From contig JAJEKV010000124.1 in the NCBI GenBank assembly GCA_021234155.1, positions 126,001 to 190,000 of the forward strand: a stretch of 64,000 bases of DNA, read 5' to 3'. Of the stretch, positions 1,315 through 53,412 are shown in pieces. The translations under genes and the position numbers were made by a program. Each line of letters opens with the position of its first letter. The first letter of the stretch is position 1. The notes beneath the pieces were generated by a model that did not search any database, was not told where the DNA came from, and saw only the letters and a list, made by a program, of their open reading frames with translations. This DNA is from Isoetes taiwanensis. Taxonomy: Eukaryota > Streptophyta > Lycopodiopsida > Isoetales > Isoetaceae.

Positions 1315-2865
1315 TTAATTGAATGATGGTTTAGACATGTCATTTTTAGGGATGAGAGCAATAAGGCTAGTGTTGATCCTGCAATCCAACCTTTTGGTTA
1401 GTAGGAATTCATTAGCAATGGAAACCATAAAATTACCCAAAAGCCCCCATGCCTTCTTGAAGAATTCAGCAGGGAGGCCATCCGGTCCAGGAGTTTTGCC
1501 ATTCTCCATTTCATTGAGCACTTTAAAAATCTCCTCATTGTTGAAAGGTCTAGACATGCTGTTGTTCATGGCATTAGTAACTCTGGCCTGCATATCAATG
1601 AAGTTATATATGTCTTGAGAGCTTGTGTCCCTGATAGTACCCATTATTCTGACAAAATGCTCCTTAGCAGCCTCTTTGAGTTGATTGTCTTCAACAATAT
1701 TATTTCCCTCCCAAAGGACACTATAAATGTGATTTTTCTTAATCCTTCCTTTGGCCTTAATGAAAAAGTATTTGGAATTATCCCTCTCATCTTTCATAAG
1801 CTCTTTGACTTTGGCTTTAATCTTCCAACCCTTTGCAATCCTGATTTCTTCCCTTTCGATCTGAATTTTAAGATCCTCCTTATTCTGGCCTTGAGCTGTC
1901 CCATACTGATTTCTCAAATCTTGCAGGTGAATAGTCTCTTTCTGATAGATCTCCTTCCCCCATACTTTTAACCAATTCTTTATGTTTTTAGAGGCCCTAA
2001 ACCACCAATCCATCCACCTGATATCATTACTGGGCTTATCTTCCATATCCAACATCTGAGCTAACTTGGTAAGGAAATCCTCATGATCCAGCAGATTAGT
2101 ATTAAGCTTAAAATAGGAATTCCTTTTCCTCTGATTATTGTTGGCATTAATATTAATAAGCTGAGGATAGTGATCAGAGATAGTGTAATTCGAGAGATTG
2201 GAGACCCTAGACCTGCTGTTCCATAAGGATTCACTAAGGTAAAACCTGTCATGAAGACAACAGATAGGCTGGATTCTGTGATTATTCCAGCTATAGGAAT
2301 GAGGGACCACTCTTGCCAAATTTAAGTGGTGGCTTGTAAGCAAAGTCATCCACTTATCATTCTCTTTCCCACTAAGGGCTCTGAAATTAGCACTCCTCAT
2401 ATAATCATGAGTAACCATATTAAAGTCTCTCCCCATTATAATCTCATCATAAGGGATACTATTCAAACTGTTAGTTATAATATTCCAAAGCTGGGCCCTC
2501 TCACCAACTTGATGATAGGCATAAATATTCACTAGAGCAATGCTATTGTTCCCTATATTGCCATGTAAAATCTGCCACCTCTTACTACCATCGTGCATCA
2601 TCTGAATATCACTTAGATTAATCCTATTGTGCCAAGCAATAGAAATACCTGCCGAAGAATTATTTGCTTTAAGAGACCACTGATTAAAGTTAGTAGGCAA
2701 CACTTCTCTAATAATATTATCAATACTATCATCATGGATCTTGTGCTCTTGGAAGAAAATGAAATCTAAATTCATAGAAACAAGATAAACCTTCACCCTT
2801 CCTCTTTTCAGATTAGAATTAATGCCCTGCAAGTTCCAGGTGATAGCCTTGAGATTTATGTCCAT
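1315..2865 (-). pseudogene. LINE (L1-type) ORF2, endonuclease domain plus start of RT, 3'-truncated
   Basis: This 516-codon open frame is the N-terminal half of a non-LTR retrotransposon polyprotein. Residues 1-235 form an apurinic-type endonuclease (EEP fold): WNLQG (N11), FFQEHK (E40), NIYA (113-116), GRDFN (D147, N149), LHDRFYLS (D206) and SDHYPQ (S230-H232). All usual catalytic positions are present. A linker rich in K/E/N follows. From residue about 447 the reverse transcriptase begins with NGKTPGPDGLPAEFFKKAW and SLIALIPK. The frame then stops, and the RT palm (YADD), the zinc knuckle and the 3'UTR/poly(A) are all missing. Complete relatives run well over 1,000 residues. Loss of the 3' rather than the 5' end is unlike ordinary LINE truncation and points to a later deletion. 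The start was chosen at the Met directly before the endonuclease domain. Confidence 0.85.
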
Positions 2866-3022: not shown

Positions 3023-6000
3023 TCAAAAACTTTTAAGATATGAATTGATTCTTAATTGTTGCTCACCTTGGCTACCAGTTGAAGAAACAGAATCATCCGA
3101 CGAGACACTATCCATGGAATCATCTTCATCGTAATCAGAATGCCCAGCCATTTCTGCCTCCCATTCATCCTCTTCTTCCTCCACACTTGCATTCTCATCT
3201 ATGATTGTCGTTGTGGCTGCCACACATCTACCTCTTCCTCTACCTCGTCTTCTTTGCAAACGTGATCTACCACTAGAGCTTGATGCAATATTAGAAGCGG
3301 CAGCAGGCAGCAGACCTAGTTTGGCTTCTAGTCACCCTTCTGGTGCTTGAACCTGTGCCTGAACCTGTGCTTTCTTCGAAGAACTTCCTCACCAATTCTC
3401 GTTCTCTCTCACTTAACAATTCAGCAGGAGGAGGAGTTACACTTGACGTATCAGCCTTGGTTAATTCAAATGGATTCACCTACATAATCAATATTAAGTT
3501 AGAAACTATATGAAAATCATGCCATGGCCATATAATCTACTAACTAATTGTAAATAGAAAATATACTAAAGAGCTAATAAATCAAATTTATTACCTGCTT
3601 TGGAGATTTTCCTCGAGTCTCAAACTTATGCATCAACCTTATATTTTCTCTGATAAATACTAAGCGCTCTAATTGAGCTGGTTTCAACCGATTTCTTTTC
3701 TTTGTATGTGCAAGTGCATGTGCACTCCAATTGCGTTCACATGCACCTGAAGAACAATCCTGAAAGAGATACACTAATTATTAAACTAAACCACAACTTT
3801 ACATGCATGCTTATGCATCTACAATGTGGAAATTTAATTGATTATGATACTTCATACCTGTGACAAGATACAGATAGCCAAAGCTTGTAGCTCAGGAGTG
3901 GCGCCTCCAAAATTCTCCCACCATGAAACAGGTTTTGCTTGGTAGCTTTCAGTTTGTGCAAGAGAAATCATGAACATAGAGGATGCATTATTTCGGAAAG
4001 CGTCAAATTGTTCTAACAAGGTAGCTGTCTCTTCCGTGCTATACCCAGTACTAATATAATTGATAAAACTTTCCATCAATGCAGGTGGTACAATAGCACT
4101 TCCTCGCCTCCACAAAGGATGTAGAAGATGTGCAACAATATGAATTGGTTTTAAAAACCATTTCCAACGTGTCTCGAATAATTTTAGCACTTGACCATAT
4201 CTAAAAAGAGAGTAAACTCAATTAGTATTCTGCCCTTGGCTTGGCTGAAAAAAATCAGAATTTAAACAAACAATTTTGCTCATGTCATTGGCTGAATTTA
4301 AGAACATGAATTCACAAAATCAAAATTCTGCTCAATCATTGGCTGAATTTAAATAGATGAAATCAACACTTAGAAAAGAAATACTTTGAAAGAAAATCAG
4401 AATTTAAATGGATAGAATTTAAGAAGATAAAATCAACGTTTAAGAATATGGCATACATACTTGGTAGCATCGAGAGAATCTGAACTTTGCCCATCCTTTA
4501 GTTGTGTTTCAGTTCTTTGCATAAACTCATATAAAAGGCCCATTGTGCATCCCTCCATATCCGTTAAACGCAGCACACAGTATAATGGTTCCATAATTTT
4601 TTTAACCAACTCAAAAGATTGTTGTGTGGCAGGATCCAACTACTTTGGTCTCTTCTTTCCTACTATCAGCCCAATTATTCCAATAATCTGAAACCACGGT
4701 TTGTTGTAGTGGAACCCATACCTTAAGTAGACGCTCTATAACGATAAAAATCACACCAAACCTTGTTGCACAAGGTCTCAAAATGGCAAGGTTTGGGCTG
4801 AAATGCCTAAAAGTATTCTTAGCAAACTTTCTTTTGGCAAAGAAGACGGATATTTTTCTAGCCTTCATGTGGGCTGTCTTGACCCAATCAAGTTTTCCAA
4901 TATCTTCCAATAAAAGATCAAGACAATGTGAAGCACATGGAGTTCTCACAATAGTGGGGAATTCCTCCTCAATTAACCTTCCCATGGATACACACGGAGA
5001 GGCATTATCCGTTACAATTTGGACGACATTCTCTTTGCCAACCTCTATTATAGCTGATTTCATACTTTCAGCCAAAAAAGAGGCATCAACTCTTGTTCCA
5101 ACCTGGCTGCAATCAATAGTCTTCAAAAACATAGATCCGTAGGCACTAGAAACAATGATATTGACGAGACCTCTACCATTTACATCAACCCATCCGTCAG
5201 ACATAATAGTACATCCATATTTTGACCATGTAGCCTTCACATGGTCACATTTGGCTGTCACATCTAAAAGTGTTTTTTTCAATCTTGCATTTCTCATTTG
5301 TTGGTAAGTAACACCGGTGCATTTCTCACCAATTTGGCTAAAAGCTTCTAACATCTTTGTCCAACATGGCAATTGCAACAAATTAAATGATAGATTAGCT
5401 TCCACAAAACATCTTACTTGCATTTCCATTGCGTACTCAATCCTCTTCATAGTAAGGACGCTTCTCCCTTTAAGTTTTGACTGACTTTCATTAAGGCGCT
5501 TGCGCGACTGGGATGAATCGCTTGGAGATCGTGGTGGTGGCATTGCCATGGAAGCATTGAATACAAGAGATGAGGTGTCATCGGACCCTACAAAAAAATA
5601 TATATAACAGATATCAATATCATCATAATTCTGCTGTAAAAAAAAATCAGCAATATAAAAGCATGGATTTGCACAAAAAGGGAAAAACTATAAATTAAAT
5701 ACGAACCAGATTGAGATAATGCTATTGACGGTGCAAATTCTTGGGAGCCCATCCCTAACTCCACCTCATTCATATCCATCATCGAACTTGTGTCCTCACA
5801 TGAACCAACTTTCAACTCTTCCTTGCATGCTTGTTTTACATCATCTGGTACTTGAGGGCAACCTCTAGCACCATGCCCTGCAATGTGACCCAAATGCCCA
5901 CATAGCCTTGTCTTTGTACCAGTAAGAAAACGGCCACAAAATTTGCAATTCCATGACCTGTTGTCATTCTTTATTACTTTCACATTTAGGCAATACATCT

Positions 6001-6389: not shown

Positions 6390-6830
6390 TAGCGACGTCT
6401 ATAGCGACGTCTGGGTCACGTCTATGCGACGTCTGACGACGTGACACAGACGTCGCTGGAGACACGTCGCATTCGACGTGCGTCGCATGCGGCGCCGACG
6501 ACGCGACACGACGCGTGGCGACGCGTGACACGAGCGTGACACGATGTCGCCGATGCGACGCGTGACACGTGGAATATACACGTGGAATTAACACGTGAAA
6601 TATCAAAAAAATCCACGTGTGCCGTAAAAGCCACGTGTATACGTCGCATGCGACGTGACACGTGGAATATACACGTGGAATATAAAAAAAATCCACGTGT
6701 GCCGTAAAAGCCACGTGTATACGTCGCATGCGACGTCACGCAAACAAATTTATGAAAATCCACGTGTAATTAGAAAAGCCACGTGGCAATAAAAAAAGCC
6801 ACGTGGATACGTCGCATGCGACGTGCAGGA
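6390..6830. repeat. Left subterminal repeats: ACGT/G-box rich with 16-bp palindromes
   Basis: This stretch is built from overlapping ACGT-core motifs. The palindrome ACGTCGCATGCGACGT is perfect at 6641-6656, 6721-6736 and 6809-6824. CACGTG G-box cores occur repeatedly between 6560 and 6810. A block of about 80-90 bp (cacgtggaatatacacgtgg ... gccgtaaaagccacgtgtat) is tandemly duplicated between about 6570 and 6736. Subterminal repeats of this sort in En/Spm-type elements are the binding sites of the element's TNPA-like protein; by analogy that is the likely role here. Confidence 0.75.
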
Positions 6831-9600: not shown

Positions 9601-10204
9601 TTATATTTTTTTTTTGACCTCTTTTTTAAATGTGATGCTCATTAAAATTTGTCCCTAGGCTTATTTAGACAGTCCCGAGGCCTTTTCGAAGAGAGGCCCC
9701 TGAACGGAGGATCCAACGGTCGGATAGGGGAACCTGGCTCCGGGAGGGTGGTCATTAGCGTGCGGCCCCCCGGGGGAGCGCTGCCAGAAAGGGCTGCCTC
9801 GGGAACTTTTTTTTCCCCCGGGGGGTCCGGACTCTCCCCCTCTTGTGAGGGATCCCCGCAAGGTCCCGCCTCGCTTGACTTGGGGAAGGGTGCCGCCTTG
9901 GTTGCCCCGCAAACGGCTGCCCCGACCGCTTCTAATGCTAACCCTTTGACCTAGACCTTCTCCCAAAAATTCCAAAAATTGGGTTGTGTGTCTTTGAGAT
10001 GAATTAGGAATTCAGCTGGCAAAAAATCAGAATTTATTTTCGTACAATGCATTAATTACGAATTTATGAATGTCTTGCCACTGCAAAAGCGCCCCCCGAC
10101 TTCTAATTGCCACATCGAGAGGAGGACAGGCCCAAACTCCGCTCCGCCGGGCCCTATTGCTCACGTTCTCGGCGCGGCTTCTCGGCCAGTCCCAACCGCA
10201 ATGT

Positions 10205-11137: not shown

Positions 11138-12437
11138 ATGCTTATATTCTCAATGCAATCTTAGACCAAGTATAACGTCCAGCCAGCCAAGGTCAACCCC
11201 AAGTACAACGGTCCCACAAACTCCATTCCTTTGACCTTAGCTAACCCTTTGACCTAGACCTTCTCCTAAAATTCGAAAATTGGCTGCAGGTGTCTTTGAG
11301 ATGAATTCAGAATCCAGCTGGCAAAAAATCAGAATTTATTTTCGTACAATGCATTAATTACGAATTTATGAATGTCTTGCCACTGCAAAAGCACCCCCCG
11401 ACTTCTACTTGCCACATCGGGAGGAGGACAGGCCCAAACTCCGCTCTGTCAGTTCCCCTTGCTCCATATTCTCGGCTGCAGCTTCTCGGCCAGGTCCCAA
11501 GTGCAACAGATCAAGTCTCGGCCCCCAAAATGCAAACCCTTCTAGAACCTGGCAACCCACACGGTTTACGTTTCGGAGGCCCTCTCCTTGTCAAATTCGG
11601 CCGGGATCTTGCGCCGTGACTTGAAGTGAAGTGGGGGTGTTGACGCCAGAGCGGGGACCCTAAAATCCCCCTGGAAGCTGCTTGCCCCGAATTTCCTCTC
11701 CCCAAGGCCCTGGGGACGGACGGGCGACCTCCCTTCTCCGGAATCACGATTTGGCTCTGCCAATGGACTCAGAACGTCGACATTGCCCTGGGGACCAAGT
11801 TCCGTGGCCAGAAGACCACCCGACTTCCAAGAAGCGCCAAAGTAGCTCACTTCCATCACACTCGTAGTCAATTGGCCTAGGATGTGGATGCGGGATACTG
11901 TCGTGGAGGGCGTGAGTGTTTCTTTCTTTTGCAAAACCGACCTTGTAACTTGCTCCCTAGGGTAATTTCGCCATTCCTGACGATTTGGCGGGTCGATTTG
12001 CCATTCGAGCCTCCCCGTGCGAATGACAAAACATCAGGGTTTATACAAGGTCCGCACCTCGGGGCGCCCCCGTTTGACAAGTTCTCCTGGACCGATCGAA
12101 TCTTTTGGCCTTCCCAAGAGGGGCCCCCGAGCGGAGGATCCAACGGTGGATAGGGGAACCGGCTCCGGGAGGGTGGTCATTAGCGTCACGTGGCCCGGGG
12201 GCGCCGCCAGAAGGGCACCTCGAGAACTTTTGGATCCCGCCTCTTGGGGTCCTGGACTCTCCCCTCTTGTGAGGGATCCCCGCAAGGTCCCGCCTCGTTT
12301 GACTTGGGGAAGGGTGCCAGCTCGGTTGCCCCGCGAACGGGCTGCCCCCGTTCTAATGCTAACCCTTTGACCTAGACCTTCTCCGAAAATTTCGAAAATT
12401 GGGCTGTGTGCTGGAGATGAATTAGGAATCCAGCTGG

Positions 12438-14559
12438 AACAATGTTTAAAATGAAACGCACTTATTTAAGAAGTGCGTTTGAAAGATTCCTTCTGAAAAT
12501 TTACAAAATTTTAAAATCCCCCTAAAAAGGATCCTTTTATTATCTTTAGTCCAAATATTTACAAAACTGCTCATGAAAACAGACATTTTAGGAAGGCTTA
12601 ACGTTACGGAGGAAACAAAAAAAAAAAAAAATCATATTTTGGAGGTGAAAAGAACTGCTACGAAAGCCAAAGATTTATTATGGGGCAAATTCATGTGAAA
12701 AAATTAAATGCTTTTGTACCTTGTCCCTGAAATTTTTTTTGTTGGCAGTTATAGAAGAAAAAAAGTTCTTATTTTACAATCATTTGGCTAAACGTTCTAG
12801 TTGACCTTAAAACACATCCAGAGCCAGTTGAACAAACTGCTTGAATGTCAAATCATTGTTTTTGCATCACATAATATTACAGACACCAATACGTCCACAA
12901 TATTTCACAATTAGCTGAAGTTTCAGTTGAGGATGCCGTATAAAATTTACACCGAGGAAGCAAAAGTTGAAGTAATGAAGGTTTGTGCTTCCATGCCCTT
13001 CGTTGTTGTTCTCGGAGATGTATTAGTACACGTCTCTAGGCTTGCACAAACCAATCCGCAATGTGGTGATGCTCAGAAGATAGTCATCCTCCTTGTCAAT
13101 GTTGAGTTCATCGCAATTTTGTCATCTGTAGCAGTGGGTGTCACTGCACATTTCTTTACCAGCAAAGTATTTATCTGTCTTGCCCTTTCCTGTCTGTTTG
13201 CAAATAAATAGGTAAACTTCTGAGGGATTGCTACTCGTCGCACCCCTTTAGACAAATCACGTGCTTTCCTTCTTAGAACTTTCGTGTTTCCGTAACATTT
13301 TGGGGTTTTTTGCTTTTAGTAGCAACTTTTAAGCTGTTAAAGTGAAGTTAGAATGTGTGTAGAGTAAAAAAAGTAAAAATAACAACACGATTTGACTAGT
13401 TTATGCTCTAATATTGCATTACAAGCTCAGAAATTTTAGAATCGATTTAGAACTTTTTGAACTAAAAAACTAATATTAATGTATAAAATTATCCCTTAAG
13501 TGTGTTATTTCATCAATATTAAGTTGCAAAACCTTTGGGGGGCAAGAACGACTCCACAAGGACACGGTATATATTATATATGTATAGATATATATTATAC
13601 ATATATAGTATATATATATTAACGTTTTTACCAGGGCTTGATCCGACAAATTTTTTTCACTAACTTGGTTGCCCCACCGAAGCCAGAGAGGGTTTAGCGT
13701 TTGTACATATAAAAAAAAATGGTATAAATTTACACCGCTAGAACTCTTACCGTATAAATTTATACGGCAAGAGTTGACTTTTTGATTTTTGTTATATACT
13801 ATATATATGCTATATATATACTATATATACATAAAAATATATAAATCCGGTATAAATTTATACCGAGAGAACTCTCGCGGTATAAGTTTATACCGAGAGA
13901 GCGGTATAAATATATACCGCTCGAGTCCTCTTGCGGTATAAATTTATACCGTGTGAACTATCTGGCGTACTATGTCCACACATTACTATCTATTGTGGTA
14001 TGAATGTATACCACCTAGAAATTTGTTTGGAAGAAACTATGGACTACAAAAAATAAATACATTATAAATTTTGAAAAAGTCAAGGTTGGATACTTACATG
14101 GCCATCTCGGTATACAGAAGTCTGTAGCGAGCCGGCAGAGCAAATAAGAGCATGTATATAAGGCAAGAGTGAGCTTCAGTGAGACAATGTCAAAATATGT
14201 TGAATTTTTTACAATTTTGTTCATAATCCTGTAATGATTTTGAAAACTTTAAATATAATACCTTTTTGGCACTCTAGTAGACTTGTTGTTTTTTTTCAAT
14301 GTCTATTTTTTTTAGGGTTTGAAAATGTTACTATTTCTCAAACCAAACTACGGGGCCAAAAAGGGGTATCAAATTTTTTTTAATGGAAGCTGAGTTCAAA
14401 TCCCCCCTCAAAAATGGTGCCTAAAATATTCAAATTGTCACACATGTCACAACTATACCGAGAAAATGGACCTTTTTTGGGGAATTTTAGGGAATCTTTC
14501 AAAGATTCCTTTTAAAGTGCGTTTGGAGCAAATTAGTGCGTTTCATTTTAAACTTTGTT
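12438..14559. mobile_element. TIR element A (2,122 bp, non-autonomous, TSD CTGG)
   Basis: The left end reads AACAATGTTTAAAATGAAAC then GCACTTATTT. The right end, on the minus strand, reads AACAAAGTTTAAAATGAAAC then GCACTAATTT. It is flanked by CTGG at 12434-12437 and 14560-14563. The other two copies of the host repeat (near 10014 and 11314) carry the uninterrupted 'cagctggcaaaaaatcag', which proves the empty site and the 4-bp duplication. Just inside both ends lies a second inverted motif related to GGAATCTTTCAAAGATTCC. A 94-codon ORF at 12927-13211 matches nothing I know and I do not call it a gene. The element carries the palindrome cluster listed separately. With a 4-bp TSD and no transposase, the superfamily is open. 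Confidence 0.85.
13721..14013. repeat. Cluster of CGGTATAAATTTATACCG palindromes (element A)
   Basis: Perfect copies lie at 13848-13865 and 13934-13951. One-mismatch copies lie at 13878-13895 and 13902-13919. A variant with swapped outer triplets, CCGTATAAATTTATACGG, lies at 13750-13767, and weaker copies at 13721 and 13996. The cluster is 546-838 bp from the right terminus. An AT-rich tata run (13567-13620 and about 13795-13840) adjoins it. Confidence 0.9.
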
Positions 14560-15089
14560 CTGGCAAAAAATCAGAATTTATTTTCGTACAATGCATTAAT
14601 TGCGAATTTATGAATGTCTTGCCACTGCAAAAGCGCCCCCCGACTTCTACTTGCCACATCGGGAGGAGGACAGGCCCAAACTCCGCTCCGTCAGTTCCCC
14701 TTGCTCCGTATTCTCGGCTGCAGCTTCTCGGCCAGGTCCCAAGTGCAACAGACCAAGTCTCGGCCCTCAAAACGCAAACCCTTCTAGAACCTGGCAACCC
14801 ACAGGGTTTACGTTTTGGAGGCCCTCTCCTTATCAGATTCGGCCGGGACCTTGCGCCGTGTCTTGACATGGAGTGGGGGTGTTGACGCGAGAGCACGGAC
14901 CCTAAAATCCCCCCGAAAGCTGCTTGCCCCGAATTTCCTCTCCCCAAGGCCCTGGGGACGGACGGGCGATCTCCCCTCCCCGGAACAGCGATTCGTCTCT
15001 GCCAATGGACTCAGGACGTCGACATTGCCCTGGGGAGCAAGTTCCGTGGCCAGAAGACCACACATGTTCACCCAACTAAGAAATGAGTT

Positions 15090-15500
15090 TTTGACGTCGT
15101 TGTATTCGTCGCACGCGACGTATTGTTAACGGTCACCTGCCAGGTCACCTACGACTTGGCAGTACACGTGGCAAATAAGTACTGACGTGTCATCTGTTCT
15201 GTAATGTCACGTAACGTCGCAGACATCCACCTGGCGTGACACCTGTCGTCCACCCGGCGCCCCAGTCCACCTGGCGTGACAGATGGACCAAGTGACGCGA
15301 CGTCGCAAATGTGGCGACTGTCGTCCACTTGGCACCGACATCCACCTGGCGTGACAGATCTGCCAGGTCACGAGTGTCAGACGTCGCAGTACACGTCGCA
15401 TGCGACATTCCCGCGACATGACATCGCATTGACGTCGCATGGTCACGTCAATTGCGACGTCACGTCGCAGGAACGTCGCAAGCCCACGTCGCTAAATGAC
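15090..15500. repeat. Right subterminal repeats of the CACTA-like element
   Basis: Many short CGTCGC / GCGACGT motifs in both orientations, including near-palindromes such as TCGTCGCACGCGACGT (about 15107) and ACGTCGCATGCGACAT (about 15393). A CACCTGGCGTGACA-type motif occurs several times between 15228 and 15360. The block runs into the right terminal inverted repeat. Confidence 0.75.
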
Positions 15501-15585
15501 CATTCTCTTGTTGTGAAAGTCTGGTACTTTTACATGTTGTACAATTCAATCCTCTGAAACAACAAAAGCAGAAGCACAAACTTAC

Positions 15586-16648
15586 CTTTACTAGATTCTC
15601 CAATAAGATGCTTGCGTTCCGAGTGCCCATGAATGACCCATTTTACCCCCAACATCCTTTAATTGTTCAACGCTGTTTGCAATACAGGAAACAAAATAAA
15701 TACCAAAACACAAGTTAAGTCTGTCGCAATGTAACAGATACTGTTTTGCAATATATGAAACAAAATCTACCATAAACCAGTCATTTTGTGGCAATGCGAC
15801 GTGACAAGAAAAACAAACAACTCACCTTATTTCCCCAGTAAAAGCACCGCCCTTGGAGACCCAGGCATTTTGGGCTGACACCTCTATTTGTTTTGTTAAA
15901 GAGTTAACAGCTTGATCAATGTAAACAAATGGCGGTGCTACAATCACATCTGTTCCCAAACACATTGACCCAGAATTTAGGGACAAGGCATACAAAATTT
16001 ATCCTTGACAAATGACAATTCATTGGCTCTACCTGATGCTGTAACATGGAAATTTATGACTTTCTTTGCAGTTTAAACATATGGTACATATGGCATCAAC
16101 AAGGCATATTTACATCTTCAACTTAATGATCACGTAATCAGCAGTTTAGTGCCTGCCCTTATTTCCTAACATCCTCCCTAATGCTTTCAACAGAAGCAGA
16201 AGTAGAACTTTGAACTAAGCAGAAGTAATGCATGGAAGTTGCACTGCTGCAGAACCTTGAACAAAGCAGAAATAATACAAAATACGTGGCAGTTGCACTG
16301 TTACAAATACGTTAAAACAAAAACTTACAACTGTGGTCGTGCGTCCCTTTGGCTGACATATGCAAAACCTACATCCTCGTCCTGCATTGTACTATTGCGC
16401 CATTAGAACGACATCTGATTTGTGGAAAGCAAAAAGGAATACTGTTGTGAATTACATTTACTTACCAACATCTTCTTCAAGCTGAGCACTATTCAAGTCG
16501 GATATAAGCTTTGAAATCGATTCCTTCGTACCATTCTGAAGCAAGCAATCAAAATAGGTGAGCCATATAAATTCAGAGGCAGCATAGAAGAACAAAAATA
16601 CCATTTGTTGAGCATACTTACACATTTCCAGTTGCCACCTACGAAGAA
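15586..16648 (-). pseudogene. TPI: Triosephosphate isomerase exons 1(part)-4
   Basis: Four minus-strand segments with proper splice sites spell the first half of TPI. 16648-16622 is FFVGGNWKC. 16535-16466 is NGTKESISKLISDLNSAQLE and on to DV. 15949-15826 is VIVAPPFVYIDQAVNSLTKQ ... AQNAWVSKGGAFTGEI. 15672-15586 is SVEQLKDVG and, after one extra G in a G-run, VKWVIHGHSERKHLIGESSK. The catalytic Lys of NWK and the His of GHSER are present. The exon boundaries match those usual for plant cytosolic TPI genes as I remember them. The start-codon exon before FFVGGNWK is not recognised. A frameshift here, another in exon 5, and 9.3 kb of inserted DNA in intron 4 make a functional product very unlikely. 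Introns are retained, so this is a DNA-level copy, not a retrocopy. Confidence 0.9.
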
Positions 16649-17037
16649 CTGTTTAAAACAAAGTAAACAAGGTCAAATGAAACAGATGCAGCAACCCGTG
16701 CAAGGCTGTTTCTGTTTGATCGGCGAAGGCAACAGGGTGATCAGCCAGAGCAAACCCTACTGGAGGGAAAAAAAATTTGAGGGGGAAAAAAAACCCAATA
16801 TCCATAATATTTTATATTTTTTTATAAAATACGTATTCTACGTATGGTATGGCTCATACCATAATGTAACGTATGGGTAGGGTAACATATATGATTTTCT
16901 CACCAAAACCATTCATTTTTTAATCTGTACGTACCGTACTTCCAGTATGGTATGGTAAGTACTTGAAAGTTACCGTACCCGTACGGATCCAACACTGATA
17001 CAAAAACACCAAACGCAGTGAATATAAACGGCACACC

Positions 17038-17749
<712 letters not shown>

Positions 17750-17849
17750 ACCTTGTAATATCAGTGGTACCAAGTAGTTCCTTTGCAATTTGTACAACAT
17801 AGGAAGCAACTTCTAATGAGCCATTATAAAATCCCTTAAGAAGCAAATA

Positions 17850-18060
17850 TATGTTTGATCAATCACATCCCACAACAATGGATTTCGCTATATTATATTG
17901 GAAGCGCATACCGGAACCAAAAACACTTAACAAAAATGTTAGTGTACCAAGCCTTCTCATGCATTCAGCAATATTTCTTGCAACACCTCCATCAACAAAA
18001 GTGACCACCACCAATCAAGATAGCCATTCCATTTTTCCTTTCGTGCAGCTGTAGAATACG
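17850..18060 (-). pseudogene. Fragment of a PfkB-family (ribokinase/pseudouridine-kinase-like) gene
   Basis: The minus strand reads MAILIGGGHF, then after a frame change VDGGVARNIAECMRRLGTLT and FLLSVFGSGM. The motif GGVARNIAEC.RRLG is the N-terminal sugar-binding signature of plant PfkB carbohydrate/pseudouridine kinases. Only the first exon or so is present, with frameshifts and a stop after VVGCD. A neighbouring open piece (GSLEVASYVVQIAKELLG, about 17822-17770) may belong to the same or another captured gene; I cannot name it. Confidence 0.6.
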
Positions 18061-18359
18061 TAAAAAACCGAACAATTGTCATCTATAGCTTAGAATTTGA
18101 AGCTGCATTCTGGGCTAATGCTATCAAGCTCTAGTTTGTAGCTCTAGACGTTACCTGGTGTGAACATTTTGGCAACAGATGATGTTCCAAAACTGAGAGA
18201 CGTCAACCAACTAAATCGTCCACCATGTGCATTCCAAAAGCCCAAAAGCCATTAATATTCCAAGCAAGCTTATCCTTGTACTCTCTTTGAAATCAGTGTG
18301 TTTGATCCTGCTTTGTGCGTTTGGTTTTGCTTTATAATCAGAATGACAGAGTTACTAAA

Positions 18360-18657
18360 CTGGAGATCGGAATAGCCTCAGTGCGGGAACTAAAGAATGT
18401 CAAATTACTTGGCAAATTGCATACCTATGTGGTGGCATATGTAGATCCGGAGCAGAAAAGGGGGCAAACATCCGGTGTGGAATGAGAAGCTTAATCTATC
18501 GGTAGCTCCACATATGCTGCAACGGCCGAATGCAGTTCTAACACTAGAAATTCTCGCTATGAGTTCGTCATCTCCGCAGCTAGTAGGGTTTGTGAGAGTA
18601 CCTCTGTCGGAGGTATTGCCAGACGCCGGAACAGAGTTTGTGAGTATTATGGAGTAA
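18360..18657 (+). pseudogene. C2-domain (SRC2-like) protein fragment
   Basis: The plus strand reads LEIGIASVRELKNVKLLGKL, then HTYVVAYVDPEQKR. After a short frame disturbance near 18465 it continues VWNEKLNLSVAP, LTLEILAMSSSSPQLVGFVR and VPLSEVLPDAG and stops. This is one C2 beta-sandwich of the plant SRC2 type ('LE..V.SA.DLKNV.L.GK...YV......NP.WNEKL.F'). The Asp residues that bind Ca2+ in canonical C2 domains are mostly absent. Orientation is opposite to the TPI, ATPase and PfkB fragments. Element B is inserted about 100 bp downstream, in what would be the 3' region. Confidence 0.6.
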
Positions 18658-19225
18658 ACAGGCTGTTGGGGCAGGTGCAAGGCTTCGCAGTTCGGTTTGG
18701 TTGGGGTTCGTGCGAGGGGCCGAAGAAGATGAAGTAGAGTTTTTAGAGATTTTAGAATTTAACAAAGTTTAAATTGAAACGCACTAATTTGCTCCAAACG
18801 CACTTCAAAAGGAATCTTTAAAAGATTCCCTAAAATTCCCCAAAAAAGGTCCATTTTCACGATCTATTTGTGACAAGCGTGACATTTTGGACATTTTAGG
18901 TACCCTTTTTGAGGGGGTAATTGAACTTAGCTTACATGCGAAATTGTTTATTGCCCCGTTTTGGCCCCCTAGTTTGGTATGAAAAATACTAACAAATCTA
19001 AATACAATAAAAAATTTGACATTGAAACAAATAGCAATTCCACTAGAGCAACAAAAGCATATAATATTCAAAGTTTTTAAAACCATTACAAATTTTTAAA
19101 CAAAATTGTAAAAAATGTAATACATTTGACATTCCCGAACAAGTTATATTTTTATGGCTTAATTTCCCCACATTTGTTGGACGATATGAATTTGAAGCAT
19201 AGGTGAGCTCAAGAGGCATATAAAA

Positions 19226-19599
19226 ATATAAATTTATACCACGTGAGCTCAAACAGTGCACGGAGAGACAACTCGAGCGGTATAAATTTATACCGCCTGT
19301 AAGCTCAAGCGGTATAAATTTTTACCATCACCCCACAGGGAAAGAGCGAGAGCGATGATAAATTTATCACAGGCATTTTTTACGGGAAGCCCGCGGTATA
19401 AATTTATACCGCCGAGCTCTCTTTAGAAACGTTTTGCTACAACTCTAGTATGCTATAACACACAAAAAATCATTTATATAAAACTATCTTCATGGTTATA
19501 ACGTGACATTGCATAGATATAACATGCCATGTGTTGGTTAAAACAAGGCAAAATATGTTCTACATCTCGTTTTCAGCTTGACGGTATAAATCTATACCG
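19226..19599. repeat. Cluster of CGGTATAAATTTATACCG palindromes (element B)
   Basis: Perfect copies at 19278-19295 and 19394-19411, one mismatch at 19582-19599, two mismatches at 19310-19327, half-copy near 19226-19240. A related palindrome, TGATAAATTTATCA, is at about 19357-19370. Two further copies lie at 21610-21627 (one mismatch) and 21651-21668 (partial) near the other end. The main cluster is 465-838 bp from the left terminus, the mirror position of the cluster in element A. Confidence 0.9.
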
Positions 19600-20325
19600 A
19601 GACTAGGAAAAGTTTTTGTGAAGGAAGCTTTGGGATTTCTATATTCTAACGAATCGCGGGAGTTTCTTGATCTTTGGAGTTTTTAGAGCATGAGTTTCTT
19701 CTGAAAGTGGAAGAAAAAAGCATTTAGGGTTTTGTTGATGCGGCCAGTTTAGGGTTCGTGCATATGCATATGAGGGACGAAGGCGCTGGATCAGAATGAG
19801 AGATGGAGTAGCAAAGTAATGTTGCTTGCTCCTAGATCTTCTCATAGCTACTAAACGTTCCTTTTCATGCCTACAAATCTTGCATCAGTTTATACGAGTT
19901 TTGCATCTTGGCTCTGTTTTGGCACAACCCTGAGTTTAGTTCCTGCCCATTCATGGATCTCTTGTTATATAGAGAAGAAATAACATTAGAATAGCCGAAG
20001 ATTCACAAAAGGCCACTGGAAATTTGAATAGTTGGAACCCTGTGCAGCCATGTGTTGAGGTGCTGCTGATGCTTCAGGAATAGGAGGAGCTTTTTCTTGT
20101 TTTTATGCTGCTCATTTTGGAGACTATTGCTAGTATATTCTACTGGGCTGAGTTCACATTTTGGCGGTCATTTGGAGAAGAGCCCGCCTAAGACAACTAT
20201 CCACCATAGCTAAGAGCTCGCAATGCACGAGAAGAGCCTTTTTTCTACTTAAAGGTAAAAAAAAGTCGGATGTTTTTTGTAGTGCACCGTCCTCTCAAGT
20301 TTAGGCATATCACGAGAACTCCGAA

Positions 20326-20489
20326 GTAACAGTTATGGAAGTAGCTCTGTTGAAGCGGTACTGTGGAAGATGCACAAGCTCCCCGCTGAAGCACCTGTCC
20401 ATTGAAGAGCTCGCCCCAAGTGACACCAAAGGAAAAACGGTGCAGCAAAGGTTGCCCTCTGCTCCTAGACCTTTGTCTCCCTATGCTAG
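20326..20489 (+). pseudogene. Possible captured exon inside element B
   Basis: An open segment reads MEVALLKRYCGRCTSSPLKH, LSIEELAPSDTKGKTVQQRL and PSAPRPLSPYAR and ends at AGG|GTATGT, a good donor. Composition differs from the AT-rich element around it. I do not recognise the protein and see no partner exon. Confidence 0.3.
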
Positions 20490-22181
20490 GGTATGTCTCT
20501 TAAACTTGCACTACATATGTCTAGATTAAGATCATTTTGTTTCTATACTTGCACCAAATGTCTAGATTAAGATCATTTTGAATCTCATTAACCAACTTTG
20601 GTATGCAAAGATCCCGAGTTGAAACCCCCATCTTCGCCAACTCCTTCGAACTTCTTTGAGATGAGAACTTTGCTCGAGGTAAATTTTTACAAAGTTCTCA
20701 TCTCGGCTCGCCCATTAGTTCTTGCAAAGGGAGAGAGATTCCATTGAGAAATGGATCAACAAAAAATAGCTTTAACTTTTCAAGAGAAAGACCTTGGCGG
20801 CGTAAAGTGAGATTGGCTTTTTGAAGATTCAAGAAGGTTCCACTTATACGATGCGCCAAAGGAGATTGAGAACGATGTAACTATGTTGTTACTTTCAAAA
20901 ACTCTAAAGTTACTTAAGGTGTAATAATGGTCTCAATCCTAGTGTAAACCTTCATCTCACCGTTGTGGCACAATGGTACAATCCAGGGCGAGAAGTTTAA
21001 GCATATGCTAGCCAAAAGGAAGCATGGCCCATCCGCAAAAGTGTTCTTGCCATGTGTTATGTGCTTATTCAAGGTTACGCAACATTGCAACCCAAGGAGT
21101 TGGCACTAATTGAAAACGATCACATGTTCTTTTGATTCAAAGTAATATGTGTGTTGGGTTTTGTAAGAAAAGGTTAAGGTTCCTTTCTAATAAAAACTAC
21201 GTAAGATTTAATAGGGTTCTTCCATTGTAGTTTTCTTGGTAAGCTCTTTTTGTCGTCCCGAGAAACTTTTTTTTTTGCATGTCTTGATTGTCGATTTGAT
21301 AATTTTGTGTAAACTTTGGTCTTTCAAGCTTTGATTGTGATTGGATTGACCAAATTCAATTTATCATTAAGTTACGCGATTAATTGGTAGCTAGAAAATA
21401 TTCATATTAAACTTGAAGATTTAATCAAATTCAAGATGTCTTTCACAAGCTCCAAAAAGTGCTAAATACAATAAGCGGTGAAGTACTTCAAATTATCAAA
21501 CAAATGCATCTGAAAGGAATGCATACGTAAGAACGATCTTTGGAGACATCAAGGAAAACAAAATCTCAAGGTCATGAGAGTCTTGTGGGACTGGGTGGAC
21601 CCACCACCGTGGTATAAATTTATACCGATGGGTTTTCATTTCAACTTTGTCGGTATAAATTTATCACATTCTTTCACTGACTATTTCTTACTTGAAACAT
21701 TCTCCGCAAATTGGTGTTTTGGGCACGTGACATCCCCTCATTATTTAAAGACCTTATACAGATAGTGCTATGTAACAACTTTTGGTAACACTATTTAATA
21801 TGAATAGTTACTTCGAATGCTTTCTTCTCTGTTAAAAGTTTAAAGAATTTATTTCTGCTAAACGATGTGTTCTGCTACCGTGAGAGTATTCATGCACGCT
21901 TTGCAACACAACCTACTTCAATTGCATGTATTTTGGCAATGGAAATTCTATGGCTCCCGTGAAATTTTGCTTGACCCCCCTAAATGGCTTCCTTTTTTTT
22001 TGGTCCTATGCTTTTAGAGTATTTCTCTTCAAAAGTGTCGTTTTCATGACGGCTTTGCAAAAATCATATCCAAAAAACTTGAATGCCTCTATTTTTTGCT
22101 CTTTTTAAAAATTTCCAATTTTTTTGAGGGAATCTTTCAAACGCACTTCTTAAATAAGTGCGTTTCAATTCAAACATTGTT

Positions 22182-22680
22182 ATTTACTGGATCGTTGATC
22201 TCAATATTAACAAATCCAACGGCTTAGGTTAAGTTTTGTTGATGTGGCAAGATACGTGCATAGCTAGAATTGCAGCAAAGTGTGCACCTCGGGTTAGGCA
22301 ACCCTGCTAAAAAGCATTGCAAAAGTAGGGATACTCTTCTAATGCATGGATAGGCTAGGACTTTGAGATAAGGTGTGTTGTGCTAAAAAAACATATGAAA
22401 TAAATTCATGGAAAAAACGAATTGAATCTGACACTAATAGAATATAACATACTTTTGTGAAGATTTTTGTAACGAGACAAGCGTATACAATTCTAGGCTA
22501 ACCACTTGTATTTTTTGGCACTTGAACACAACAATGTCATTTGCATGCGATTTGCGCTAAAAGCCCAAGGTTCGGGAAAGAATACACTAAGTAAATCTGT
22601 CACTATCTACAGAAATAGAGATATCCTGCACATGCCGAACAAGTAAACATTTGGGTTGACCCAATCCATGTTTGGCACCA
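22182..22680. other. Spacer between element B and the ALKBH-like gene
   Basis: It starts with the TSD of element B and has no credible ORF or repeat. Confidence 0.5.
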
Positions 22681-51210: not shown

Positions 51211-53412
51211 TTTTTTTTTTAAGGACGAAAGCCAAAAAGTTTATTAATCAGATAAAAAGTACAAAATTTACATGTCTCATCTAACTGTGTAAGCACAAAA
51301 AGATGTCACAGGAGCACAAGCCTGGAGCACAATGTACTTACTCCAGAATAGGAGACTAATGATAAGAATCAATTCGAAGATATCGAATACAGATGCATTC
51401 CATCATTCTGATTCAAGGGAGGAACACTCATAGGCTTCCAATATCTTTTTCTGGGCCACTGTAATAACACCGCATGCAAAAGAATTAATGCCCTGAAAGA
51501 TGTGGTGTCTGCGACGCTCCCATATCGACCATAGGAGCCAACCGGAACCAAGTTGGAATGCCCTTTGTTTAGCTGGAGGCCATGCGTTGGGATAGGACGC
51601 CAAGAGGATGCATCGGTAGTCCAATGTACTGTTAAACAAACCCTGTAGCCAGGACCATGCTGGTTGAACCTCAGGACAATCAAAGAGACAATGCTCAAGA
51701 GTCTCAACGCCTGAAAGACAGAGTGGGCATACTGCAGATATGCGAGGATAGCGATGTCGGAAGGCATTAACCCGCAGGCGCCTGTGGATAACCTGCCACC
51801 ACAGTACAGAGACTTTAGGGTGGAGCAACCTATCCCAAAGCCATCGCCATGTACGACACAAAGTGGGCTGTGGAACCCGTAGGTGCCACCCATCTGGCAA
51901 CTGGAGGGGCTGTGGTGCTAAAAGAAGGCGATATACTGATCTGACAAAGTGCCTGACTTTGTGAATATTTTCATGACAGTCCCATGGCACCCTTTCAGCA
52001 ACACCAACTTGCACTATAAGAGGCAAATTTTCTGCGACCTTCTCCCATAGAGATATATCCCAACGAGAGAGCAGGAACTTTGCCTGAAATTCAGGCCAAG
52101 ACAGTAGGCGACCCGCCTCATACCATGCTTGAATGGAGACAACACCTGCAAGAACCCATCGTCTCTGTGTAAGGGAATGAATTGATGCTGCCAATGGAGG
52201 CGCTAAGGGGTCTGGAGGCAGTGGTGCCCCGCACCATGGAGTCTTCAATAGGGTATGGATAGAGGGGCATGGCCAAAAAAGATGTCTGATCGCCTCCTAT
52301 ACTGTCAACAAGCCACGCAAAAATGGAGAAGCACTTGGAAAAGGCTGCAGAGTCTAAAATAAAGCCCAAGGTAGGACTGGTTTGATAGCCTTCTTGTCTA
52401 GAGGGATACAGTGACCAAGAGCTTGTCTAAAAAGGCATGAACCAGGAGAGTCATCCTCACCATTCAAGAGTCTCCAAATGAACTTTGAAATAAGCACTTT
52501 GCTCTACAGTAAGAAGTCCATCATACCCAGACCACCTGCCCCCTCAGTACCCGCCCAAATAAAGTTCCGAACTATTGCAATGAGCTCACGCATTTTGATC
52601 TTTGGGGCTAGCAGTAAGGATGCCATATAAACATGGGTACTACTAAGGACTGACTTGGCCACTGTAATGCGACCCGCAAGAAACAACTTAGTGGTGGACC
52701 ACCAGAACAAGTGCTTCTTCAAACCCCTAATGATCTCCTCCCATGCAGCTCCCATAGTAACATATGGATGCCAACTGGAATCCCCAACAACTTGATGGCT
52801 TGTCCATGCGCAAGTAATTTCCATGGATAATCGTGAACACATGCCGGAGCCGGATTATCCAATGTCCACAAAGTTGTACACTTCTGCCACCCCACAAGAA
52901 CACCGGAAGCCAGTGAAAAAGTATCTAAGAGCATTTTGGCAGCAGCAAGGTTCTCAGCATTGGCGACTAGAAAGAGGAACGTGTCGTCTGCATATTGATT
53001 GCAAACCTCTTGTGTGCCGTCCTCCATTGCAAGACCATGGAGAAGTCCCTTCGTAGTTGCAACGGTAAATAACTGCGACAAAGCCTCTGCAACAATTGTG
53101 AAAAGCAATGGTGCTAAAGGGCATCCCTGGCGAATACCACGACCGAGTCTAAAGGCATCTGACGGCTCACCATGGAACATAACAGTCGCCCGAGCAGAGA
53201 TATGCAGCTTCATAATATCGGATGTGAATTGTTCCCCAAAACCCAGTCTTAGCAAACATCGGCGCATGAATTCCCAGCTGACACTGTCATAAGCCTTTGC
53301 AAAATCAAGTTTAAGGTATACAACTGGAAGGTTTTGCTTACGTGCCCAATAAATTCCCTCGTAAGCAGCAGCAACATTGTTCAAAATGCACCGTTTTGGA
53401 AGAAAACCTTAC
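51211..53412 (-). pseudogene. 5'-truncated LINE: reverse transcriptase plus zf-RVT, with poly(A)
   Basis: From 53384 the minus strand encodes an RT palm: VVYLKLDFAKAYDSVSWEFM (first Asp), GRGIRQGCPLAPLLF and NQYADDTFLFLV (YADD). A frame change near 52760 leads to the thumb/connector (HLFWWSTTKLFLAGRITVAK), a gap, then 52248-51403 with VSVLWWQVIHRRLRVNAFRH and CPLCLSGVETLEHCLFDCPE, the zinc-binding zf-RVT motif. The 3'UTR includes AATAAAC and GGCTTTCGTCCTT and ends in a 13-base A run (T run at 51211-51223 on plus). Endonuclease and 5' sequence are missing (truncation near 53412), the usual outcome of incomplete target-primed reverse transcription. At least three frame lesions show it is dead. 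Confidence 0.88.

Follow-up and report, generated by a model that had tools for sequence, protein, structure and literature searches.

The 64,000-nucleotide stretch of Isoetes taiwanensis DNA analysed here (the window; assembly GCA_021234155.1, contig JAJEKV010000124.1, positions 126,001 to 190,000 of the forward strand) carries two DNA transposons, elements A and B, which have common ends and 4-bp target duplications and contain clusters of an 18-bp palindrome, CGGTATAAATTTATACCG. A preliminary description, made from the letters of the window alone, had already paired them as related elements with homologous termini, and the ends, the duplications and, for A, the empty sites have all been found (Table 1). 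The two elements are 82% identical over 374 bp at one end and 89% identical over 79 bp at the other, and no similarity to either A or the element proteins was detected in the interior of B. The repeat into which A is inserted also occurs empty in the window: when the 160 bases that flank A are joined, they match two such copies at full length, with 92% and 94% identity. Since A retains a remnant of the first exon of a methylase gene, it is an internal-deletion derivative of a longer copy. Deletion of the coding parts moves a promoter array close to one end, which explains the subterminal position of the palindromes in A.

At up to three mismatches the palindrome matches the window 12 times, against 0.01 expected and with none of 100 shuffles reaching 12; the clusters reported for A and B, and the outliers at 21610 and 21651, are thus real. 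Their distance from the homologous terminus is also about as first given, being 561–837 bp in A (one degenerate site lies at 1,078 bp) and starting from 465 bp in B, and the B outliers are 528–569 bp from the other end of that element. The degenerate site beyond the first-exon remnant of A has counterparts at the corresponding place in long copies (L015 4864, L011 4025, L016 5090; L numbers denote stretches fetched from the genome). The A array from 13848 to 13951 is self-complementary as a whole (81% over 106 bp), and linkers recur as reverse complements in the arrays of other copies.

Table 1. Features of elements A and B, in window positions
Feature	Position	Strand	Remark
Element A	12438..14559	-	2,122-bp internally deleted copy
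Ends of element A	12438; 14559		methylase-side; transposase-side
Terminal inverted repeat of A, left	12438..12461	+	
Terminal inverted repeat of A, right	14536..14559	-	
Target duplication CTGG of A	12434..12437; 14560-14563		left copy; second copy
Empty-site paralogues of A	near 11318; near 10016		in the window
Degenerate palindrome	12936..12954		one inserted base; beyond first-exon remnant of A; read by eye
Remnant of methylase-gene first exon (A)	12987..13271	-	44% identity; E 1.1e-18 and 3.6e-19 (two comparisons)
Palindrome (A)	13720..13737		2 mismatches
Palindrome (A)	13750..13767		swapped outer triplets, 2 mismatches
Palindrome (A)	13848..13865		perfect
Palindrome (A)	13878..13895		1 mismatch
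Palindrome (A)	13902..13919		1 mismatch
Palindrome (A)	13934..13951		perfect
Palindrome (A)	13996..14013		degenerate, core GTATGAATGTATAC
Element B	18761..22181	+	3,421 bp; termini same as A
Target duplication ATTT of B	18757-18760; 22182-22185		
Palindrome (B)	19224..19241		degenerate
Palindrome (B)	19278..19295		perfect
Palindrome (B)	19310..19327		2 mismatches
Palindrome (B)	19394..19411		perfect
Palindrome (B)	19582..19599		1 mismatch
Palindrome (B outlier)	21610..21627		1 mismatch; 0.57 kb from B's other end
Palindrome (B outlier)	21651..21668		half-degenerate, 3 mismatches

In the 1.66-Gb genome, CGGTATAAATTTATACCG is found at up to two mismatches at 13,785 places, against 58 for the reversed pattern, and the element terminus AACAARGTTTAAAATGAAACGCAC at up to one mismatch at 971 and 983 places on the two strands, against none for its control. 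The 50 palindrome places listed make up 15 loci, which were fetched as 14 stretches (L001–L004, duplicates of L005 and L006, were excluded from the counts). An element terminus lies within element distance at 14 of the 15 loci, where about 0.02 per locus would be expected under uniform placement; for one of the 14 (C23 at 21,920) a terminus 5.9 kb off is the sole link to the element, and the fifteenth locus (C4, L006) carries the element's genes. The worry that the palindrome might be common throughout the genome and unconnected with these termini is therefore borne out for its abundance and contradicted for the association. Among the 100 terminus places listed of 1,954, there are 33 facing neighbour pairs, 12 of them 2.13–2.26 kb, five 3.5–5.9 kb and 13 8.36–9.43 kb in size, with three longer ones (12.3, 15.8 and 47 kb). 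Matching 4-bp duplications flank seven of the eight elements with both ends visible (A, B, L005, L010, L011, L013 and L018), the sole exception being L012, whose flanking tetramers are mismatched. The family with these palindromes is very abundant, and its long copies carry a DNA methylase gene.

Such longer copies with coding capacity, for which the preliminary description had recommended a search, are illustrated by L011, an 8.6-kb element with an ACCC duplication, in which two divergent genes read outward from the middle. One gene encodes a DUF7869 protein (PF25273; E 1.9e-52, 178 bits against a cut-off of 26), which is probably the transposase; all 150 DUF7869 matches scored in the genome, out of 9,902 first-look candidates, are above the cut-off. 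The second gene consists of a first exon, a basic exon, part of which is doubtfully ParB-like, and, last, an N6_N4 DNA methylase (N6_N4_Mtase, PF01555; E 8.6e-12 in L015 and 5.4e-15 in F19, 45.9 and 56.4 bits against a cut-off of 26.7). The methylase motifs are present in permuted order, the IPYG exon preceding the S-adenosylmethionine (SAM) exon (DAFSGSGTT). These exon models combine mechanical open reading frames (ORFs) with tblastn matches, and the introns are putative. A BAH domain, guessed by eye for the first exon, found no support, Pfam giving no BAH match and the PDB no match.

The 150 N6_N4 methylase matches scored in the genome, of 1,443 first-look candidates, likewise all exceed the cut-off, and such a load of bacterial-type methylase genes is striking for a eukaryotic genome. 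Twenty-four of them lie within 13 kb of one of the 150 scored DUF7869 matches, against 0.35 expected, and 22 of these 24 neighbour pairs are divergent, one is convergent and one tandem. The other 126 have no DUF7869 neighbour among the scored 150, most DUF7869 candidates being unscored.

In the long copies the main palindrome array occupies the divergent promoter (L011 4664-5438, L015 3384-4190, L016 5748-5980), and more sites follow after the first exon and between later coding pieces, in putative introns. The subterminal clusters emphasized at first are thus a feature of the short copies and not of the 8.6-kb copy, where the main array sits between the divergent genes and no closer than 3.6 kb to either end. 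When each family's own core was counted at up to two mismatches in 12 element stretches, coding matches held eight of the 205 sites, against 132.5 expected from coverage. In L011 (886-903) and L015 (7404-7421) the stop codon of the methylase gene itself falls inside a palindrome copy (GTA TAA: V, stop).

The conservation of the palindrome was assessed on 216 copies with up to four mismatches from the window and the 14 stretches. Each of the 12 inner positions within the 14-bp core GTATAAATTTATAC is conserved in 95–99% of the copies and its two outermost positions in 94% and 91%, the CG on either flank is kept in 69–74%, and just outside the 18 bp the information falls to about 0.02–0.18 bit per position. 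Linkers are 43–50% identical (random 32–33%), whereas the palindromes are 88–92% identical. A simple satellite as the source of the clusters is ruled out, since the information is confined to the 18 bp. The suggestion that symmetry rather than sequence is selected does not survive within the family, where one-sided changes prevail (81 against 16 compensatory and 10 double non-compensatory changes at the outer pair 1/18; 82 against nine and 12 at the pair 2/17; one compensatory change in total at the seven inner pairs), although symmetry is kept between families. Within-family compensatory symmetry was accordingly given up as evidence for structure, such changes being rare. The outermost positions change mostly from C to T (41/66) and from G to A (44/67); decay is not claimed for the whole CpG, the neighbouring G and C (positions 2 and 17) being off this rule (13/57 and 13/67).

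Spacings between neighbouring sites peak at 28–33 bp, with minor groups near 21, 42, 52, 56 and 62–63 bp. Their vector strength is 0.53 at a period of 10.5 bp (146 spacings), compared with 0.45 at 10, 0.51 at 11, 0.21 at 9 and 0.36 at 12 bp, and without the main peak it is 0.55 at 10.5 bp (63 spacings), with a phase near zero. For a related family with the palindrome GTATTCCGGAATAC, using spacings from the places listed only, it reaches 0.77 at 10.5 bp (23 spacings); the rival periods of 13, 10 and 8 bp are also strong there (0.67, 0.62 and 0.58), because 42 bp and its double dominate. Such spacings near multiples of about 10.5 bp, as described by these vector strengths, suggest that proteins sit next to one another along a single face of the DNA; arrays can also spread by duplication.

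Three other families with DUF7869 have other palindromes, placed in equivalent non-coding positions. The right part of L006 contains a second, diverged gene pair with GTATTCCGGAATAC in its promoter instead, and stretches upstream of five DUF7869 genes of other branches (five of the 150 scored matches) were also fetched. F19 and F20 have nine sites each, five of them exactly GTATGAATTCATAC, in the promoter and in a putative intron of the methylase gene; the promoter of F46 contains eight GTATTCCGGAATAC-like sites and F41 has seven, one being exact in each; F43 has 16 sites within two mismatches of CTATGCGCGCATAG, nine of them exact. The frame YTAT-N6-ATAR is constant and its centre changes symmetrically between families. 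In the genome GTATTCCGGAATAC occurs 3,720 times, against 0 for the reversed sequence and in part in runs of 42 bp, and GTATGAATTCATAC, from a low-copy family, 64 times against 11. Pairs of CTAT-N6-ATAG number 939 against 401; in the 30 pairs whose letters were seen, 18 have an exact CTATGCGCGCATAG and 20 are spaced 41–43 bp apart (hand count). The proteins differ as well: DUF7869 identity between family 1 (the family of CGGTATAAATTTATACCG) and the others is 63–78%, with F19/F20 at 78% (the L015 row, out of frame, was left out), and the first exons of the methylase gene are 17–26% identical between families.

The anatomy of the elements, their two genes, and the family-specific sites with their placement are direct observations. 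The sites are sequence-specific, roughly phased, non-coding and repeated, and they change from family to family, which points to a dimeric protein evolving with the element. In this respect the idea of dimer sites for a trans-acting protein, put forward in the preliminary description, holds up as a deduction from the near-invariant core, the spacing near multiples of 10.5 bp, the scarcity of sites in coding sequence and the centres that differ from family to family. The reading that we favour, at somewhat short of an even chance, is that the palindromes are docking sites of an element-encoded dimer, most likely the methylase protein, serving promoter control and anti-silencing. The dimer would recognise its own family's palindrome (YTAT-N6-ATAR with a family-specific centre) and bind arrays of sites on one helix face, located in the promoter common to both genes, in the introns and at one of the non-coding ends. 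Binding would mark the element as its own, the dimer changing together with its sites, and the likely outcome would be regulation of the divergent promoter and shelter from silencing by the host, of the kind that VANC gives VANDAL elements. An array is retained in short copies, which would be served in trans. We infer the element origin of the binder, its identity with the methylase protein and its anti-silencing effect. A more specific version, in which each family's own methylase docks, spreads and marks the element with N6-methyladenine (6mA) or N4-methylcytosine (4mC), so that copies would escape silencing without cross-talk between families, is rather unlikely.

A ParB-like domain in the methylase protein, if present, would suggest a parS-like loading, and it remains a doubtful lead. 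The basic exon gave weak ParB matches (phrog_723, E 0.0037; phrog_6392, E 0.011), in one of two exons; a second ParB comparison gave E 0.38, again with any match in one of two exons, and DUF6551, which we take to be ParB-like, matched weakly at E 0.013–0.03. Further ParB searches gave nothing; the ParB-like alignment had no relatives in viral contigs or bacterial genomes, nor had the DUF7869 alignment any in viral contigs. Among phage methylases that resemble the methylase exon (348 records, E ≤0.01), five loci were fetched to look for a fusion to ParB: of the three proteins translated, none looked ParB-like by eye, and the one scanned in Pfam had no ParB match.

Several observations weigh against the favoured reading. 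Being related to one another, the copies are not independent counts in the statistics, and a P value for the scarcity of sites in coding sequence should not be read literally. Pfam and PDB searches gave no known relative for the methylase gene's first exon. The ParB matches of the basic exon are no better than that of the same exon to an unrelated Pfam family, IgA0_D2 (E 0.003), and the ParB-like domain therefore stays a lead. The cores GTATAAATTTATAC and GTATGAATTCATAC differ at one symmetric pair only, and the other four sites of F19/F20 are mixtures with family 1, one of them being the family-1 core itself. Most F41 sites are intron-side, and the promoter side has a single weak one. Paired sites whose centre starts with G or C number one, against 15 in the control; the GAATTC centre does begin with G, yet the sites of that family are spaced too widely for the paired pattern. 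In F43 and F46 no methylase-domain exon was found in the fetched stretch, which leaves the link between palindrome and methylase incomplete across copies. Lastly, the transposase outside DUF7869 (its N-terminal part) also diverges, the best tblastn pieces being about 38–58% identical, and the choice of binder is therefore close to even, with a leaning to the methylase protein.

The sites could instead be bound by the DUF7869 transposase, or by its N-terminal part, for transposition, in end assembly or in choosing which copies to mobilise, in the manner of the subterminal repeats of Spm/En or Ac. We consider this unlikely, though a serious competitor. In its favour, sites lie within 0.6 kb of both ends in B, despite its different interior, and in four of six short copies of 2.1–2.2 kb (L005, L010, L012 and L018), and F43 and F46 combine sites and a transposase gene with no methylase-domain exon found nearby. 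However, these two loci retain the first exon of the partner gene next to the array (in F43 recognised by alignment at 26% identity). Moreover, in L013 and in A the counted sites lie close to a single end (A has an extra degenerate one, seen by eye, about 0.5 kb from the other), and the 8.6-kb copy has its main array in the promoter, at least 3.6 kb from the right end, with others in putative introns. Alternatively, the sites could be operators only, forming a classical autoregulatory promoter element of two divergent genes. The densest array is in the divergent intergenic region in L006, L011, L015 and L016, and in L011 and L006 one site stands about 20 bp before the putative start codon of the transposase; but sites also occur in putative methylase-gene introns (family 1, F19/F20 and F41), and those at the methylase stop codon in L011 and L015 are more than 2 kb from the promoter, making operators as the whole explanation improbable.

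A host transcription factor or other host factor that binds the palindromes and is exploited by the element would fit insofar as the binder may come from outside the element; four families with four centres at corresponding places in one genome are not expected from one host factor, and we regard this explanation as quite improbable. We disfavour still more strongly a hairpin, cruciform or satellite by-product formed with no protein recognition, to which we give very little credence. The self-complementarity of whole arrays, as at 13848-13951 (81%), would suit it, but compensatory changes within the family are rare and the linkers have diverged far more than the palindromes (43–50% against 88–92% identity).

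Subterminal repeats that bind transposase are known in the Spm/En and Ac elements. The short motifs that cluster close to the ends of the short, non-autonomous copies resemble them, whereas the long copies here have a central main array in the divergent promoter and further sites in putative introns. Palindromic sites in arrays are also a property of the ParB/parS partition system, which the present arrays and the possible ParB-like stretch recall by resemblance, any homology being tentative. Ginger transposons make a 4-bp duplication and have a Gypsy-integrase-like (rve) transposase; the duplication here is also 4 bp, but element ORF pieces scanned at E ≤1 gave no rve family, and no KDZ, MULE-type or VANC-type family either, which sets these elements apart from KDZ transposons as well. 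The closest working parallel is VANC of the VANDAL transposons of Arabidopsis, which are Mutator-like. The VANC protein recognises motifs peculiar to its family, located in introns, between genes and in the non-coding terminal parts, and lifts silencing (PMC5735166, PMC10398659). Common to both systems are arrays of short family-specific motifs in non-coding parts of DNA transposons, differences between related families and an accessory gene (PMC5735166, PMC10398659). In contrast to the 14–18-bp palindromes found here, the VANC21 motifs are asymmetric and in one orientation (YAGTATTAY; PMC5735166); the proteins are DUF7869 and an N6/N4 DNA methylase, with no VANDAL-type protein among the ORF pieces scanned; and anti-silencing is proven for VANC, while here it is a proposal.

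As for the methylase, N4CMT of bdelloid rotifers is a bacterial N6_N4 methylase turned into a eukaryotic epigenetic writer (PMC8885841). It likewise belongs to PF01555, in a eukaryote, and has the catalytic motif before the SAM motif; however, it is a host gene fused to a chromodomain, and the present gene is a transposon gene accompanied by its own palindrome arrays (PMC8885841). Retrotransposons of dinoflagellates and charophytes have captured cytosine methyltransferases and are thus also transposable elements with a DNA methyltransferase, but these are C5 enzymes in retrotransposons (PMC5890265). The open-licence literature searched contained no mention of DUF7869 and no such palindrome-array system, which is weak evidence. 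If the favoured reading is true, this would be a second case, with other proteins, of transposon families diversifying a recognition motif together with an accessory gene, and it would suggest a function for the uncharacterised DUF7869 family. A eukaryotic genome is also seen to contain many bacterial-type N6/N4 methylase genes, at least some of them within transposons, and because four site variants occur naturally in the one genome, the switching of specificity can be tested directly.

Other palindromes were seen in a listing from which those of A and T only had been filtered out. The 9.9-kb L012 stretch contains a different one, AGGAATATTCCT, six times. Another, GTCGCATGCGAC, is found in the window at 6643, 6723, 6811, 9533, 9550 and 15395, in GTCGC/GCGAC-rich stretches around 6–7, 9.5 and 15 kb, and may be part of another repeat with a similar style of array. 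Further ORFs of the window (1318-2865, 4614-5687 and 51406-53408) are of long interspersed nuclear element (LINE) type (Exo_endo_phos, RVT_1, zf-RVT), with one DUF659 ORF that is probably a hAT transposase.

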